DNA of 39,049 nt from Chitinophagales bacterium (GTDB taxonomy: Bacteria; Bacteroidota; Bacteroidia; Chitinophagales; LD1). The notes under the pieces are model-generated. The model had not been told where the DNA came from. It worked only from the letters and a program-made list of their open reading frames with translations, and searched no databases. Below, piece after piece: positions 19,846 through 29,455 of the stretch (position 1 is the stretch's first letter; the number at the start of each line of letters is the position of its first letter). Both the position numbers and the translations under genes were made by a program. Location: assembly GCA_025057415.1 (NCBI GenBank), contig JANWXI010000017.1, positions 1-39,049 of the forward strand, written 5' to 3'.

Positions 19846-21075
19846 GTGCGCTCACAGGATGCTTACGCTGCGTTGCGTATTGAGGATTTCAGGCATTTTC
19901 AGTTGTCGCGTTTTTTACTGACTATGTCCATCCAGATGGCAGAAACGGTCATTTCATGGCGTGTTTATGAAATTACCGGCAGTAAGATGGCTTTGGGATG
20001 GATTGGGCTAAGCGAAGCTATACCATTTATATTAACATCGCTGGTGGGGGGGTATGTGGCAGACAAGTTTAACCGGTTTCACATTGCCCGTGCCACGATA
20101 GTCGGTTTTATACTTACTTTCGGCAGTTTGGGCTGGCTGATGAGCGGAAATAATCCGATTGTATCTGCTTATGGTGTGGCGCCTGTGTATTTACTCATTG
20201 GCGTGGGTGGCATTGTGCGCGGATTTATGGCGCCGGCTTTTCAGAGTATCTTTCCGCAAATCGTACCGCGGGCGCTTTACGCCAATGCTGCTACCTGGGC
20301 CAGTAATACCTGGCAAACTGCCGCTGTGGCCGGCCCGGCGTTGGGTGGTATTATATATGGACATACAGGTGCAGCCACAGCGTTCACCGTTTCGGTAGGG
20401 TGCATGTTGTGCTCGTTTTTTGTTTTTCTGCTCGTAACCGAAAAACCACAAACACATGCCGTAAAACAAGAATCCTTCCTGGCATCATTCACTTCGGGTT
20501 TGAAATTTGTTTTCAGCCAGCGTGCGATGCTTGGCGCCATCACGCTGGATTTATTTGCCGTATTGTTTGGCGGAGCAGTAGCGCTATTGCCGGTATTTGC
20601 CAAAGATATACTGCATGTAGGCCCTAAAGGACTTGGGTTTTTGCGCGCAGCGCCTTTTTTAGGCAGCGTTATGATGGGAGTTGTTTTAGCGTATTTTCCA
20701 CCTACTGCGCATGCAGGAAGAAACCTGATGTGGGCAGTAATCGGATTCGGGCTGGCAACTATCGGTTTTGCACTTTCAAAAAACTATTATCTGTCGCTTT
20801 TCATGTTGTTTCTCACCGGGGCTTTCGACAATGTGAGCGTAGTGATTCGTCAAACCATACTGCAAACCTTTACTCCCGATACCATGCGGGGACGAGTAAG
20901 CGCCGTGAATCAGATATTTATTGCCAGCAGCAACGAAATAGGGGCTTTTGAAAGCTCTCTGGCTGCCACTCTCATGGGCACCGTTCCCTCGGTTGTTTTT
21001 GGTGGGTGCATGACCTTGCTTGTTGTCGCGGTCATTTACCATGCCATACCCCAACTGCGCGCATTGCGCCTGTAG
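19846..21075 (+). CDS. MFS transporter (MFS_3/EntS-like)
   Basis: FRHFQLSRFLLTMSIQMAETVISWRVYEIT, GGYVADKFNRFHIA, RGFMAPAFQSIFPQIVPRALYANAATWASNTWQTAAVAGPALGG, MRGRVSAVNQIFI; ~12 hydrophobic segments. Confidence 0.9.
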   Translation: MRSQDAYAALRIEDFRHFQLSRFLLTMSIQMAETVISWRVYEITGSKMALGWIGLSEAIPFILTSLVGGYVADKFNRFHIARATIVGFILTFGSLGWLMSGNNPIVSAYGVAPVYLLIGVGGIVRGFMAPAFQSIFPQIVPRALYANAATWASNTWQTAAVAGPALGGIIYGHTGAATAFTVSVGCMLCSFFVFLLVTEKPQTHAVKQESFLASFTSGLKFVFSQRAMLGAITLDLFAVLFGGAVALLPVFAKDILHVGPKGLGFLRAAPFLGSVMMGVVLAYFPPTAHAGRNLMWAVIGFGLATIGFALSKNYYLSLFMLFLTGAFDNVSVVIRQTILQTFTPDTMRGRVSAVNQIFIASSNEIGAFESSLAATLMGTVPSVVFGGCMTLLVVAVIYHAIPQLRALRL

Positions 21076-21168: not shown

Positions 21169-21188
21169 AAACGGGTCATTGACCGTTT
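21169..21188. promoter_or_regulatory. Inverted repeat upstream of the phosphonatase-like gene, candidate operator
   Basis: AAACGGGTCATTGACCGTTT: near-perfect dyad AAACGG(G)TCA / TGACCGTTT with one bulged base; overlaps the likely -33 region of a promoter whose -7 element would be TATTCTTG (21201-21208). Confidence 0.45.
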
Positions 21189-21226
21189 AAGTACATATTT
21201 TATTCTTGCAAACGCGCGCTGATCCT

Positions 21227-21910
21227 ATGTCTATAAAACTTGCGGTATTTGATATGGCCGGCACCACCGTGCACGATGAAAATTTTGTGGCGGATGCTTT
21301 GGTGAGAGCATTTGCAACGCATCAATTATACATCACCCGTCAGCACGCCAATCGCAAAATGGGTATTCCCAAGCCGGTAGCCATTCGCGAGTTGCTGGAA
21401 GAAATGTATGAAGAGATGCCCGCAGACATTGATAAAACGGTAAATCAGATACATAACGATTTCCGCGCCGCGATGCTTGAATGTTATCGCACACACCCCG
21501 GTGTACGCAGCAAAGAACACGCAGAGGACGTTTTTCGCGAATTGAAAAACATTGGAATCACCGTAGCGTTGGACACCGGATTTTCGCGCGACATTGCCGA
21601 TGCGATTACGGAAAGATTGGGTTGGTCAACCCGAAAACTGGTGGATATGGTGATAACCAGCGATGAAGTGAAACAAGGCCGTCCCGCTCCCGATATGATT
21701 TTTCGCGCTATGGAGCTGGCAGGTGTACAACAAGCGTACGAAGTTGCCAAAATCGGAGATACCGTAAGTGATTTAGAAGAAGGAACATCTGCCGGCTGTC
21801 GCTATGTGATAGGTATTACTTCTGGCGCGCAACCTCGCCATGAGCTAGAAAAAGCGCCTCATACGCACCTCGTTGATAATTTAAAAGAGGTACTGCCTAT
21901 ACTTATTTGA
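21227..21910 (+). CDS. HAD-family phosphonatase-like hydrolase (PhnX-like; TIGR03351-type)
   Basis: Motif I VFDMAGTTVHDE (DxAGT), cap motif MGIPKPVAIREL with Lys at the PhnX Schiff-base position, motif III GRPAPDMIFRAM with Arg instead of Lys, KIGDTVSDLEEGTSAGC. Confidence 0.85.
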   Translation: MSIKLAVFDMAGTTVHDENFVADALVRAFATHQLYITRQHANRKMGIPKPVAIRELLEEMYEEMPADIDKTVNQIHNDFRAAMLECYRTHPGVRSKEHAEDVFRELKNIGITVALDTGFSRDIADAITERLGWSTRKLVDMVITSDEVKQGRPAPDMIFRAMELAGVQQAYEVAKIGDTVSDLEEGTSAGCRYVIGITSGAQPRHELEKAPHTHLVDNLKEVLPILI

Positions 21911-22046
21911 ACACAACTCTTTTAGAAGTATTTTACTCTGTCCGCTTTTTAAGAAACCGGAAATTTTCAACTTGACTTTTATAGTTTATGGTAATCTTAT
22001 CATAAAGATTTAGTAACGACTTAAATTTTATATTGAAAATTTACAG

Positions 22047-23387
22047 ATGTTACGCAGGATCCGTTTCCCTTGTATTACATATCATTTGGAAAAAAACGCT
22101 GTCTTGCTGACTATCTATGCAGGAGTGGCTACTTTTTTTACATACTCTTGTATGTACGCATTTCGCAAGCCCTTCACGGCGGCTACTTTTCAACAAACGG
22201 AAATGTTCTCAGTCGGGTATAAAACACTGCTGGTAATAGCTCAGCTATTGGGTTATACACTCAGTAAGTTTATCGGTATAAAATGGATTGCGGAATTACG
22301 AAGTGAGCATAGGGCCGCAGGTATAATCCTGTTAATTTTTATTGCATGGATTGCACTTTTGCTATTTGCCATATTACCTCCTGCCGCCGGAGTTGTTTGC
22401 ATGTTTCTGAATGGTATTCCTCTTGGTTTAATTTGGGGGATTGTGTTTAGTTATCTGGAAGGGCGCAGAACGACCGAAATGATGGGAGCGGTACTCACAG
22501 TGAGTTTCATTTTTTCATCGGGTGTGGTGAAAAGTGTGGGCAAGTGGCTGATGATAAACTGCAGCGTGAGCGAGATGGCAATGCCGTTTGTTACCGGTGC
22601 TGTATTCATATTTCCTCTGATAGTTTTTGTCGTTTTATTGGAGCAGATACCGCACCCTAGTAGAGAGGATAAAGCGCTCCGGTGGGAACGTGTGCCAATG
22701 AGTGCCGTTCAGCGAAGAGATTTTCTTAAACATTTTTTGCCGGGTATTGTGTTACTGGTTGTTACGTATGTGTTTTTGACCGTACTGCGCGACATACGCG
22801 ATAATTTTGCAGCCGATATATGGCAAGAAAACGGTTACGGTAAAGCTCCGGCCATTTTCACCTTTTCAGAGATACCAGCTTCAGTTTTAATCCTGTTCAT
22901 GATGAGTTTACTGGTATTGATTCAAGATAACTACGAAGCATTAAAAATAAATTTTATACTGATTACATTGGGCTGGGTGATTTCTCTATTGAGCACCCTG
23001 CTATTCAGAAGCTCCGCCTTGTCACCCGTCATTTGGATGATGTTAACCGGAATAGGGCTTTACATGGGATATGTGCCATTTAATTGCATGCTGTTTGAAC
23101 GACTGATTGCCGTATTTCGCAGGCCGTCTAATGTGGGATTCCTCATGTACGTTGCCGACTCGTTTGGTTATTTGGGAAGTATAGCTGTGTTGCTGTTTCG
23201 TGAATTTTTCAAAGTACCAATGAGCTGGACACATTTCTTTCAACATGCTTTACTGGTCGCCAGCATAGCAGGCACTGTTTTGATAGCGGCAAGTTATGTT
23301 TATTTTTCTTGGCGCTATAAGAAAACCGTGAAATTGGATGAAGGAGATAAACTCATTGAAGAAAAATCATCGGTTTACAAGATATAA
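22047..23387 (+). CDS. DUF5690-like MFS-type multipass membrane protein
   Basis: Many hydrophobic segments; YSCMYAFRKPFTAATF, YTLSKFIGIKWIAEL, FLNGIPLGLIWGIVFSYLEGRRTTEMMGAVL. DUF5690 is assigned from memory of the family. Confidence 0.75.
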   Translation: MLRRIRFPCITYHLEKNAVLLTIYAGVATFFTYSCMYAFRKPFTAATFQQTEMFSVGYKTLLVIAQLLGYTLSKFIGIKWIAELRSEHRAAGIILLIFIAWIALLLFAILPPAAGVVCMFLNGIPLGLIWGIVFSYLEGRRTTEMMGAVLTVSFIFSSGVVKSVGKWLMINCSVSEMAMPFVTGAVFIFPLIVFVVLLEQIPHPSREDKALRWERVPMSAVQRRDFLKHFLPGIVLLVVTYVFLTVLRDIRDNFAADIWQENGYGKAPAIFTFSEIPASVLILFMMSLLVLIQDNYEALKINFILITLGWVISLLSTLLFRSSALSPVIWMMLTGIGLYMGYVPFNCMLFERLIAVFRRPSNVGFLMYVADSFGYLGSIAVLLFREFFKVPMSWTHFFQHALLVASIAGTVLIAASYVYFSWRYKKTVKLDEGDKLIEEKSSVYKI

Positions 23388-23398
23388 TTATTTTATAT

Positions 23399-24526
23399 AT
23401 GACAAAAAAAGCAGTTGTTATTGGAGCAGGTATAGTGGGTTTAGCTATGGCGCGGGCTTTGGCGATACGCGGTTTTAGGGTGACGGTGTTGGAACGCAGC
23501 GGGCGTGCTGTAGGTGCATCGGTACGTAATTTCGGGATGGTGTGGCCGATTGGTCAACCCACCGGCAAACTGTTAGAGCGGGCCATGCGTACCCGCAGTA
23601 TTTGGATATCATTGTGCGAACAAGGAAAATTATGGTATGACCCTTGCGGCTCATTGCTGGCGGTACATGAGCAGGATGAACTGGACGTAATTCATGAGTT
23701 TACGGAGTTAAACCGCGCTCATCGCACTTGTGAGGTTTTCGATCCCGAAAGGGCTATATCGAAGTGTCCTGCCCTGTGCAGAGACAAACTTCTCGGGGCT
23801 TTGTGGAGCGATAGTGAAGTAATCGTGGATCCCCGACAGGTACTTGCTGCCTTGCCGATTGTGCTTAAAGAGTTATATGATATACAATTTTACTTTGGGA
23901 AGTGTGTTTCGCACGTTTCTCATCCGCGTGTGTTTTGCGGCCGCGAAGTTTTTGAAGCAGAGGTGATTGTTGTATGCAGTGGCTATGATTTTGAAACGCT
24001 GTACCCCGAAGCGTTCGCCTCGCAGCCCATCACCCGGTGCAAGTTGCAAATGCTGCGTACAGTGCCACAGCCAGACAGCTGGAGAATGGGCACTGCGTGC
24101 AGTGCAGGACTTACGCTGACACATTACGCTGCCTTTCGCGATTGTGCTTCTTTAGCCAAACTGCAAGAGCGGTATAAGGTCTCGCATCCTGAATATTTGC
24201 AGTATGGCATTCACGTAATGGCATCGCAACAAGGAAATGGAGAAATTACGTTGGGCGACTCGCATGAATACGGACTCACATTTGAACCTTTTGACTCAGA
24301 TCATATCAACCAACTCATTCTGAATTATTTAGATTTATTTTTAAAATTTCCCACCCGCAGAATTGCTCAAACCTGGCACGGGATTTACGCTAAGATGACC
24401 AACGGAGCCAGTGAGCTCATTCTGGAACCTGAAAGCGGTGTGCTTATCGTCAACGGGTTGGGAGGAGCGGGTATGACCCTCTCTTTCGGCCTGGCGGAAG
24501 ATGTGGTGGAGCAGTATCTGAAATAA
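23399..24526 (+). CDS. FAD-dependent oxidoreductase (DAO family, TIGR03364-like)
   Basis: Rossmann motif AVVIGAGIVGLAMARALAIRGFRVTVLERS, SVRNFGMVWPIGQPTGKL, C-terminal GVLIVNGLGGAGMTLSFGLAEDVVEQYL; 11 nt after the DUF5690-like gene. Confidence 0.85.
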   Translation: MTKKAVVIGAGIVGLAMARALAIRGFRVTVLERSGRAVGASVRNFGMVWPIGQPTGKLLERAMRTRSIWISLCEQGKLWYDPCGSLLAVHEQDELDVIHEFTELNRAHRTCEVFDPERAISKCPALCRDKLLGALWSDSEVIVDPRQVLAALPIVLKELYDIQFYFGKCVSHVSHPRVFCGREVFEAEVIVVCSGYDFETLYPEAFASQPITRCKLQMLRTVPQPDSWRMGTACSAGLTLTHYAAFRDCASLAKLQERYKVSHPEYLQYGIHVMASQQGNGEITLGDSHEYGLTFEPFDSDHINQLILNYLDLFLKFPTRRIAQTWHGIYAKMTNGASELILEPESGVLIVNGLGGAGMTLSFGLAEDVVEQYLK

Positions 24527-26319: not shown

Positions 26320-27582
26320 TTATTGTTTTGCTACCACCCTTGGCGCTCCACCGTCCACCCAGGTAGCAAATACTTCCGCAAAGGCGTGCCATTGGCCCAT
26401 GTAAAGAAACGGGCGTGCCGATACGTATTTTAAAAATTCCATCACATCCTCCTGTGTAGCACTTTCCATTATGTCAAACAACATTTTACCGTTGTATGGA
26501 TTTTCTTTTCCTTCTATCAATTTGTTTTGCGGGTCGCCCTGCTCTTTTAATGCTGTTCCCACTTTTTGTAACTCAAGTACCATGGAACTGAGGCAATCTT
26601 GCTGCCATGCAGCTTTGGTCATTTCATAAATGTCATGAAAGTTACTTATCAAAGGCATATTGTACTCCAATTCATAAAAATTAATACCTTTTGAAAATAT
26701 GTTGAAGAACAAATTTTGTTTAATGGTATCCATAGGAATTTTTACAGAAGTGGCTATCAGTAGTTTTTCTTTATTGGGGTTATTTTTTGTGCGCAGAATG
26801 TATGGTTTTAATTTTTCATATTCCGGGATTTTGATTTTCACATATACTTCGTCTGAGTAATCTTCTTCGCCTAACGGAAATACATTTTCTGCCTTAATTT
26901 CTTTATCTTGATACGTGATGAATGCGATAGACGGTTTTAATTTTTTTCCTGCATTGCTGTTGTCAGTATATCTTCCATAAAAACGATTCGAGACGATTAA
27001 GTATGGGGCGCTGCCCTTCGGGTCGTTTTCAATAATCGTATCTATGTTAAAGAACATGACGGTTTCGGGGTCGTCCCAATACTCGGTTCCCTTATCATTG
27101 TAATAACCAATAAATTTGTTGTCTATGCGCTTCTCATGATAACCTTTTGGCAGTGTGGGCTCAGGCATGTTTTCGTACACCTCACGCGGCACGCATCCTC
27201 TGCACTCCCACTCTTTTAAGATTTTCAACACCTTACCTTCTTTATTGATTTTTCGCCAGAGGCCATCTTTTTGCACCCAGGTCGTGCCCTTTATAAAAGG
27301 ATACGTCATTTCATACTGGGCGGGCAATACCTCATTCCCTTTTACATCAATAAAAGCCCACAACCCGTCATACACATCAAAGCAATCATAATAGCATCCG
27401 TAAGCCACAGCCGCCATCCCTTCGCTAAACCATTCGGCTCGCTCGTACCTGGGCGGAATTACAATTTTTTTATCAGGTGTACAATACCCCCACAAGGCGC
27501 CACTGCGGTAGGGAATGAGCATTTGTGCCTGAGCGGAATGGCCAATCAAAATGACGACTAAAATTTTGAGGATGAGTTTCAT
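26320..27582 (-). CDS. WG-repeat-containing exported protein
   Basis: Signal peptide MKLILKILVVILIGHSAQAQ; WG repeats such as GALWGYCTPDKKIVIPPRYERAEWFSEGMAAV and GLWAFIDVKGNEVLPAQYEMTYPF. Confidence 0.85.
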   Translation of the reverse strand: MKLILKILVVILIGHSAQAQMLIPYRSGALWGYCTPDKKIVIPPRYERAEWFSEGMAAVAYGCYYDCFDVYDGLWAFIDVKGNEVLPAQYEMTYPFIKGTTWVQKDGLWRKINKEGKVLKILKEWECRGCVPREVYENMPEPTLPKGYHEKRIDNKFIGYYNDKGTEYWDDPETVMFFNIDTIIENDPKGSAPYLIVSNRFYGRYTDNSNAGKKLKPSIAFITYQDKEIKAENVFPLGEEDYSDEVYVKIKIPEYEKLKPYILRTKNNPNKEKLLIATSVKIPMDTIKQNLFFNIFSKGINFYELEYNMPLISNFHDIYEMTKAAWQQDCLSSMVLELQKVGTALKEQGDPQNKLIEGKENPYNGKMLFDIMESATQEDVMEFLKYVSARPFLYMGQWHAFAEVFATWVDGGAPRVVAKQ

Positions 27583-27838: not shown

Positions 27839-29455
27839 TTATCTGAATTTGATTCTACCGGAACCTTTACATTCCGGGCAAATGGACTTAGGCGATGAAA
27901 TGCAAACGTAACAAGGGGCATATTTGTAATTTACGCTTTCTCTGTAGCCGCGGCTATTGTAATCGTAATATGTTGATGAAGGATTGCTGCGATCCAACAC
28001 TTGCACTTTTCCTCTGCCGCCACAAGCACTGCAACTGCTGACTTTTCCCGTGCCGGAACAGGTAGGACAGGGGTAATTTCCGGTGGGCATGGGTAGTTCT
28101 AATTCTGACAAGAATTCCCAGAATGTCTTCTTCTCTTTAGTCTGCTCTTTGGCTATAGTTTTCACTGTAGGGGTCACAGACACATTTTCTATTTTTTTTA
28201 TACCGGCAATGGCGCCATTCAGTTTATTCGTTAGTATTTTGCCATCAGCAGTGTGCGGCATCTTTACAAACCAGGCATAATAATCGCGTTTTAATTGAAC
28301 GGCAGCACACACGTTATAGCAACCATCCAGAAAATCTTCACGGATAGAAAATGCCTCGCTGTAGGGAAAATCATTTAAGATAAATGATGAGAGATAATTT
28401 AAGTCATTGTCATATTGAGCAAGAATTAGTTTTTTGCCATCGGAGGTTTGCCGGTAGCCGCCAAAAATTAACCCACCCATATACGTTTCAAAGCAGTTGA
28501 ATACGTCTTTTACAGAGGGGTCTTTAATCGAAGGATCGGATACTTTAATGCCTTTCCCAAGATTAACCGTTGATTGATTGGTAACTAATTCATAAGCCAT
28601 AGAGTTGGCATCAGCCGGATTACCGGAATTAGAATACTGACCCAATAGATAATATCGTGAAACAACCATGCCTAAATCTGACCCGGTAATGATATGGGTT
28701 GGAACAAAATAATTGAAAGTGCGCAAGTCATTTTGAATAATAACCTTTCTTTCAAGAGGATTGATGGCTGTAAGCTTGAGAGTGTATTTTTTTTCGGGAG
28801 TAATGTGATAGCCCGCACATACAATGTCCCGGTCAAGAATATTGATGGTAGTAAATTCTTCGCCTTCTTCATAGTGTTCAAAAAGTACTTTGCCAATACT
28901 GGCTATAATACCCATAAACATACTGTGTTTACGAGTTGACTTATCTATATGCTGACCAGCAACAAACAAGACCCCGTTATGATAGATACAAGCATTAATT
29001 TTTCCATAACCATCGTTGCTAAACGGAAAAGGTTTCAGCCATATTTCATCTCCGTTTCTTCGTATAGCCCCGATGATCGGAATATTAATATGAGCGCTAT
29101 CGGCCCAGCCGTAATAAAAAAAGTAATCAGCCGTGTCGCTGCCTACCGATTTCACACCGGCAATATGGGTATCAAAACTTTTGTATTTTAAATTTTTTGA
29201 CCACACAGACTTACCATTGGTATCAACAGCGGCTACAAACCCCGATTTGCCCGTATTGCCAATCAATAAATTGCCAAGTTTCTTTTGTTTATCCGGTGCG
29301 TCAGCGAGAAAATGAAATTGCAGATTATTACCGCCATGGATGAGCACCTCCTGAAAAGACAACGTTTCTTTTTGTGCCAATACCCAGTATGGGAATAATA
29401 CCCACAACAAAATAACCCGGCGTAAGCATCTCAGTAAATTATTAAAGATTTCCAT
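27839..29455 (-). CDS. Exported beta-propeller-like protein with C-terminal DnaJ-type (CxxCxGxG) zinc-finger module
   Basis: Signal peptide ending YWVLAQ; C-terminus has CPTCSGTG, CSACGGRG, degenerate CYVCISSP and CPECKGSG. Confidence 0.82.
   Translation of the reverse strand: MEIFNNLLRCLRRVILLWVLFPYWVLAQKETLSFQEVLIHGGNNLQFHFLADAPDKQKKLGNLLIGNTGKSGFVAAVDTNGKSVWSKNLKYKSFDTHIAGVKSVGSDTADYFFYYGWADSAHINIPIIGAIRRNGDEIWLKPFPFSNDGYGKINACIYHNGVLFVAGQHIDKSTRKHSMFMGIIASIGKVLFEHYEEGEEFTTINILDRDIVCAGYHITPEKKYTLKLTAINPLERKVIIQNDLRTFNYFVPTHIITGSDLGMVVSRYYLLGQYSNSGNPADANSMAYELVTNQSTVNLGKGIKVSDPSIKDPSVKDVFNCFETYMGGLIFGGYRQTSDGKKLILAQYDNDLNYLSSFILNDFPYSEAFSIREDFLDGCYNVCAAVQLKRDYYAWFVKMPHTADGKILTNKLNGAIAGIKKIENVSVTPTVKTIAKEQTKEKKTFWEFLSELELPMPTGNYPCPTCSGTGKVSSCSACGGRGKVQVLDRSNPSSTYYDYNSRGYRESVNYKYAPCYVCISSPKSICPECKGSGRIKFR

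Follow-up and report, generated by a model that had tools for sequence, protein, structure and literature searches.

We investigated a three-gene cassette in a 39,049-bp stretch of DNA (hereafter the window), which is one whole contig (JANWXI010000017.1, C88 in our set) of a Chitinophagales bacterium assembly (196 contigs totaling 3.22 Mb; completeness 93.9%). The cassette encodes a HAD hydrolase, a DUF5690 membrane protein, and a flavin adenine dinucleotide (FAD)-dependent amine oxidase (Table 1). The relatives of the window in our searches were Bacteroidota, and the nearest DUF5690 proteins came from Chitinophagales. An initial inspection of the letters alone (the sequence-only reading) had described three co-directional genes, the last two 11 nt apart. 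All three were present on one strand with this 11-nt distance between the DUF5690 stop and the FAD gene start, and hidden Markov model (HMM) scores placed them in families TIGR03351, PF18943, and TIGR03364. The end of the cassette at 24526 also stood, whereas no gene starts at 21169, where the reading had placed the beginning; the cassette runs from 21227. The open reading frame listed for the HAD gene spans 21206–21910 from a TTG codon, but the ATG at 21227 (MSIKLAVFDMAGTT), with which the starts of relatives coincide, is the likely start. Co-transcription of all three genes is likely but not certain because the gap between the HAD and DUF5690 genes is unusually long (136 bp, versus approximately 0–7 bp in most relatives). 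Scanning this spacer for a promoter and a terminator gave nothing convincing. Hits from the sigma-70 promoter and terminator scans were at chance level, and the Bacteroidota-type promoter pattern matched twice in the window (1.7 expected), in neither case upstream of the operon.

Table 1. Coordinates of the cassette and of nearby genes in the window.
Feature	Position	Strand	Support and predicted role
TIGR03351 PhnX-like HAD hydrolase, 227 aa from ATG	21227–21910	+	TIGR03351 221.4 bits (cut-off 218.9); predicted C–P bond-cleaving phosphonoaldehyde hydrolase
AT-rich spacer between HAD and DUF5690 genes, 136 bp	21911–22046	.	Read directly; longer than in most relatives
DUF5690 (PF18943) membrane protein, 446 aa	22047–23387	+	PF18943 547.7 bits (gathering score 25); predicted aminophosphonate permease, major-facilitator OPA-like fold
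TIGR03364 FAD-dependent amine oxidase, 375 aa, PbfD family	23399–24526	+	TIGR03364 400.0 bits (cut-off 285.1); predicted oxidation of N-methyl-AEP/AEP to phosphonoacetaldehyde
MFS_3 family transporter	19846–21075	+	Best models efflux-type
WG-repeat protein	26320–27582		
538-aa protein	27839–29455	-	C-terminal cysteine-rich CxxCxGxG repeats

The FAD protein matched TIGR03364 over the full length of the profile (positions 3–365 of 365). This family contains the PbfD enzymes, which have been shown to oxidize N-methyl-AEP and, in one case, 2-aminoethylphosphonate (AEP) to phosphonoacetaldehyde; their activity is known for PbfD1 and PbfD2 only, and their genes usually adjoin phnX without phnW (Zangelmi et al. 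2023, PMC10590968). PbfD enzymes are also less strict than PbfC, with N-ethyl- and N-propyl-AEP among the substrates tested (PMC10590968). By analogy with these relatives, the window enzyme probably deaminates its substrate oxidatively to a phosphono-aldehyde, as the sequence-only reading had proposed. The FAD gene is linked to a phosphonatase-type HAD gene, located two genes upstream in the window and linked in most relatives too. The closest solved relatives of the HAD protein were the phosphonoacetaldehyde hydrolases of Bacillus cereus, with which it aligned. Its nucleophile loop (DxAGT) and the lysine that forms the Schiff base in PhnX (K53) were both invariant in 27 homologs plus B. cereus PhnX. 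The retained lysine argues for the C–P bond cleavage envisaged in that reading, a reaction that we predict for TIGR03351 from sequence. The catalytic pair is of a kind already described, and its enzymology is essentially published for other bacteria (PMC10590968).

None of PhnW, an ABC phosphonate importer, and C–P lyase was found among the window proteins scanned, in line with the sequence-only reading, and a C–P lyase or ABC import route was rejected on this basis. Genome-wide, the best PhnW score was 39 bits, with none above the cut-off of 400.8, and no phosphoenolpyruvate (PEP) mutase was detected at E 0.001. Together, these two absences argue for PbfD as the aldehyde source and against biosynthesis. 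The lack of PhnW is not an oddity: outside the PbfD1 group, PbfD usually occurs in this way.

We examined the co-occurrence of the three families in the same 346 Bacteroidota genomes, searched with DUF5690, TIGR03364, and TIGR03351 (the last at E ≤ 1e-30). DUF5690 was detected in 34 genomes and TIGR03364 in 27, and the two were found together in 25, against 2.65 expected (Fisher, 2e-28). The signal survived collapsing by genus (19 shared, 3.6 expected; 3e-16), although these Fisher values overstate the independence of related genomes and are not true probabilities. Similarly, 23 of the 24 genomes with TIGR03351 also contained DUF5690 (2.36 expected). Of the 25 genomes holding both DUF5690 and TIGR03364, 19 had the FAD gene no more than 5 kb away from DUF5690. 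One outcome that the sequence-only reading had named as a refutation, DUF5690 homologs generally lying away from phosphonate genes, did not occur. When approximately 20 kb around each of the 36 DUF5690 loci in these genomes (an even Bacteroidota sample) and around 13 further loci drawn from a separate collection were analyzed, a phosphonate-catabolic gene was found within 10 kb at 27 and 12 of these loci, respectively, and such genes adjoined DUF5690 in all three annotated plasmid records that carry it. The order of the window (HAD–DUF5690–FAD, same strand) recurred at 17 loci and a second order, DUF5690–FAD–HAD, at seven; therefore, the grouping of the trio is not due to chance.

Elsewhere, the neighbors of DUF5690 also included PhnW, PhnX, PhnY, PhnA, PbfA, and the Phn-HD oxygenase. 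The arrangements comprised PhnA–PhnY–DUF5690–PhnW (L098), PbfA–DUF5690–PhnW (L094 and L095), DUF5690–PhnW–PhnX (G014), DUF5690–PhnX–PhnW in annotated records of Parabacteroides distasonis and Bacteroides finegoldii, DUF5690–PbfD–PhnX on a 757-kb Novosphingobium plasmid, and, at L075, a PhnW–PhnY locus whose FAD oxidase is of another kind. That the enzymes are swapped while DUF5690 remains constant is the pattern expected of a substrate importer. Conceivably, the HAD and FAD proteins, both from broad superfamilies and the former barely over its TIGR03351 cut-off, could act on non-phosphonates as a generic phosphatase and an amino-acid oxidase, with the linkage to DUF5690 being incidental. This is highly improbable given the specific co-occurrence and adjacency, the PhnX-type catalytic loop and lysine of the HAD protein, and the substitution of bona fide AEP enzymes beside the same membrane protein. 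A role of the cluster in phosphonate biosynthesis, in which DUF5690 would export what is made, has in its favor that PhnW is reversible in other organisms (PMC10590968), but it is likewise highly improbable: the genome lacks PEP mutase as described above, the neighbors are catabolic (PbfD, PhnX, PhnA, PhnY, and PbfA), and PEP mutase was not among the recurrent neighbors identified.

Further genes accompanied DUF5690 at related loci. Upstream of the HAD gene at many of them (L002, L003, L009, L012, L013, L087, and others), these comprised a SusC/SusD pair, Phn-HD (TIGR03276) oxygenases (at 16 loci), and secreted alkaline-phosphatase-superfamily esterases (at 22 of the 48 loci, but at none of the ten that lack phosphonate genes). 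The combination suggests a larger phosphonate utilization locus in which esters or lipids beyond the inner membrane would be broken down to release aminophosphonate. In the window, no such component was seen. Beside the operons at 18 loci (L074, L076, L077, L079, L080, L088, L098, and others) was a small helix-turn-helix plus cupin-like regulator (approximately 190 aa, cluster c4), hinting at substrate induction. In addition, the FAD amine oxidase between DUF5690 and PhnW–PhnY at L075 (L075:10686-11912) resembled N-methyltryptophan oxidase/sarcosine oxidase and scored only 61 bits with TIGR03364; it may be of the PbfB or PbfC type, or represent a new enzyme.

The DUF5690 protein matched no family other than PF18943 at E 1. 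Its AlphaFold2 model, built from a 48-sequence alignment (pLDDT 93.8), confidently predicts a major-facilitator fold, and a Foldseek search of the model against the PDB returned major-facilitator proteins, led by the OPA transporter G6PT (SLC37A4); Escherichia coli GlpT ranked 16th, and SLC37A2 came lower. Because single-sequence hhalign comparisons of DUF5690 with GlpT, UhpT, UhpC, XylE, and FucP yielded nothing usable, we compared profiles. The DUF5690 profile aligned with a 23-sequence OPA alignment at 91.6% probability (E 8e-7, 351 collinear columns). In the controls, a sugar-porter alignment reached 29.8% over 63 columns, and reversed profiles stayed below 1%. A second profile comparison, with GlpT, UhpT, and UhpC only, gave the same register for transmembrane helices (TM) 1, 2, and 7 at lower significance. 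In the profile alignment, the phosphate-contacting residues of GlpT (Y38, R45, K46, Y76, K80, and R269; GlpT mutagenesis is summarized in PMC4598623) aligned to identical residues of DUF5690 (Y33, R40, K41, Y70, K74, and R248). Among 48 DUF5690 homologs, Y33, R40, K74, and R248 were present in all, Y70 was Y in 46, and K41 was K in 41 and R in seven. The predicted fold and site independently favor the importer role, which the sequence-only reading had offered as inference. DUF5690 may thus work like an OPA carrier; we do not file it under OPA because the match to OPA HMMs fails.

When the BFVD was searched with the same model, the nearest predicted viral structures were major-facilitator proteins from protist-infecting giant viruses, namely Edafosvirus (TM-score 0.87 at 22% identity) and Pandoravirus (0.76–0.83). 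These predicted structures were closer to the DUF5690 model than any solved structure. At the sequence level, scanning viral contigs gave no DUF5690 relative.

Based on these results, we consider it very likely that the cassette is an aminophosphonate utilization operon with DUF5690 as its previously unassigned permease. DUF5690 would import AEP, N-methyl-AEP, or a close analog across the inner membrane as a rocker-switch major-facilitator carrier, gripping the phosphonate with R40 and K41 (TM1), K74 (TM2), and R248 (TM7), and import would possibly be coupled to phosphate exchange. The PbfD-type FAD enzyme would then use O2 to convert the amine to phosphonoacetaldehyde, releasing methylamine or ammonia, and the TIGR03351 HAD enzyme would cleave the C–P bond via a lysine Schiff base to yield phosphate and acetaldehyde. 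We infer transport, its direction, its coupling, and the exact substrate from linkage, predicted fold, and conserved residues.

Several observations weigh against this interpretation, beginning with the relatedness of the genomes noted above. The Foldseek TM-scores to OPA proteins were moderate (0.54–0.64), with unrelated major-facilitator proteins nearly as high. No OPA model was among the NCBIfam matches of 48 DUF5690 members at E 1 (TIGR00881 failed), and searching the PDB sequences with a DUF5690 HMM gave no match even at E 10. As for the HAD protein, it passes TIGR03351 by 2.5 bits only, and its score against the PhnX equivalog TIGR01422 (117.1 bits) is below the cut-off of 220, so we regard it as a phosphonatase-like enzyme and not as PhnX itself. 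The position of PhnX His56, in the cap active site, is alanine in the window protein and in nearly all homologs. Moreover, nine of the 36 sampled DUF5690 loci had no phosphonate neighbor, mostly in two supported sub-clades (L078, L096, L097, and L100; L099, L101, L103, and L104), and, on the DUF5690 tree, 10 of 52 loci were of this kind, requiring four changes. TIGR03364, TIGR03351, PhnX, and PhnW were all absent above the thresholds used in G115, G080, G122, G276, and G284, and the sole trace in G065 was a sub-cut-off PhnW. The phosphate-site residues are kept in the two sub-clades, suggesting that another phosphonate or an organophosphate may be carried there. Because some sub-clades lack phosphonate neighbors, the family is not strictly phosphonate-only, and linkage does not settle the substrate for every member.

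Given that TIGR03351 is a family separate from PhnX and that the HAD protein lacks His56, the enzyme might take a different phosphono-aldehyde, and the operon might degrade another phosphonate, such as an N-substituted or longer-chain aminophosphonate. The breadth of PbfD noted above points the same way, as do the SusC/SusD pairs and secreted esterases at many loci, which suggest conjugated phosphonates as the outer substrate. Conversely, a true PhnX replaces TIGR03351 beside the same DUF5690–PbfD pair in Novosphingobium, and the characterized PbfD enzymes yield phosphonoacetaldehyde. We therefore regard a different substrate as possible, though on the unlikely side.

DUF5690 could alternatively be an exporter or a release valve for excess phosphate or another product, with uptake left to an unlinked system. 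OPA-like carriers exchange phosphate, AEP catabolism for nitrogen frees phosphate (PMC8316502), and the TIGR03351–PbfD pair lies away from DUF5690 in G190 and G250. This role is nevertheless improbable: no other inner-membrane transporter recurs at these loci, the recurrent outer-membrane SusC/SusD pairs imply a need for inner-membrane import, and a phosphate antiporter would serve both tasks together. As an importer, the DUF5690 permease may represent an unrecognized, sequence-divergent class of phosphonate:phosphate antiporters that keeps the phosphate grip of GlpT, in Bacteroidota (including gut Bacteroidales) and some Alphaproteobacteria, in which phosphate from C–P cleavage would drive the next import. 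We put this forward tentatively and rate it somewhat below an even chance.

Among known systems, the closest parallel is the pathway without PhnW represented by PbfD2 of M. fucicola (PMC10590968), in which a PbfD/TIGR03364 oxidase is likewise encoded beside a phosphonatase-type HAD enzyme in a genome without phnW and the aldehyde likewise arises by oxidative deamination. The window differs in that its HAD enzyme belongs to TIGR03351 rather than to the PhnX equivalog and in that DUF5690 is embedded in the operon; transporters in such clusters are not discussed in the main text of that paper. In Bacteroides, Parabacteroides, and several other lineages, the membrane protein linked to the operons of the hydrolytic PhnWX and PhnWAY pathways for AEP is DUF5690 itself; relative to those operons, PbfD takes the place of PhnW in the window, and TIGR03351 that of PhnX. 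AepP of Pseudomonas putida is a proven AEP permease related to GlpT (28% identity) with the phosphate-binding residues kept (PMC8316502). By this description, AepP would be like the predicted DUF5690 carrier in being of the major-facilitator type, in being encoded with AEP catabolic genes, and in keeping the GlpT phosphate residues, but AepP is an OPA-family protein, whereas DUF5690 has no HMM-level OPA match and is tied to the family by profile and fold. With GlpT, UhpT, and G6PT (SLC37A4), DUF5690 would share the fold and the six phosphate residues, as judged by prediction and alignment; identity in the profile alignment is approximately 17%, and TIGR00881 fails. Among the papers searched, none named DUF5690 or TIGR03351.

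Two other neighborhoods in the window were recorded. Directly upstream of the cassette and co-directional with it is the MFS_3 gene, which was rejected as the importer because it best matches models of efflux proteins and is not a recurrent neighbor of DUF5690 at other loci. Downstream, the repeats of the 538-aa protein have the look of a DnaJ-type zinc finger, and its gene adjoins that of the WG-repeat protein.

Phosphonates provide a sizeable source of phosphorus, and their use is commonly read from genomes by means of uptake genes. The two enzymes alone are not news; the novelty lies in the assignment of DUF5690 as the probable permease for aminophosphonates in Bacteroidota and in some Alphaproteobacteria. 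If this assignment is correct, a family of unknown function present in approximately 10% of the sampled Bacteroidota genomes would acquire a function, it would become possible to test directly whether gut Bacteroides and Parabacteroides use AEP, and a class of transporters would be escaping environmental surveys that rely on PhnD, AepX, and AepP.

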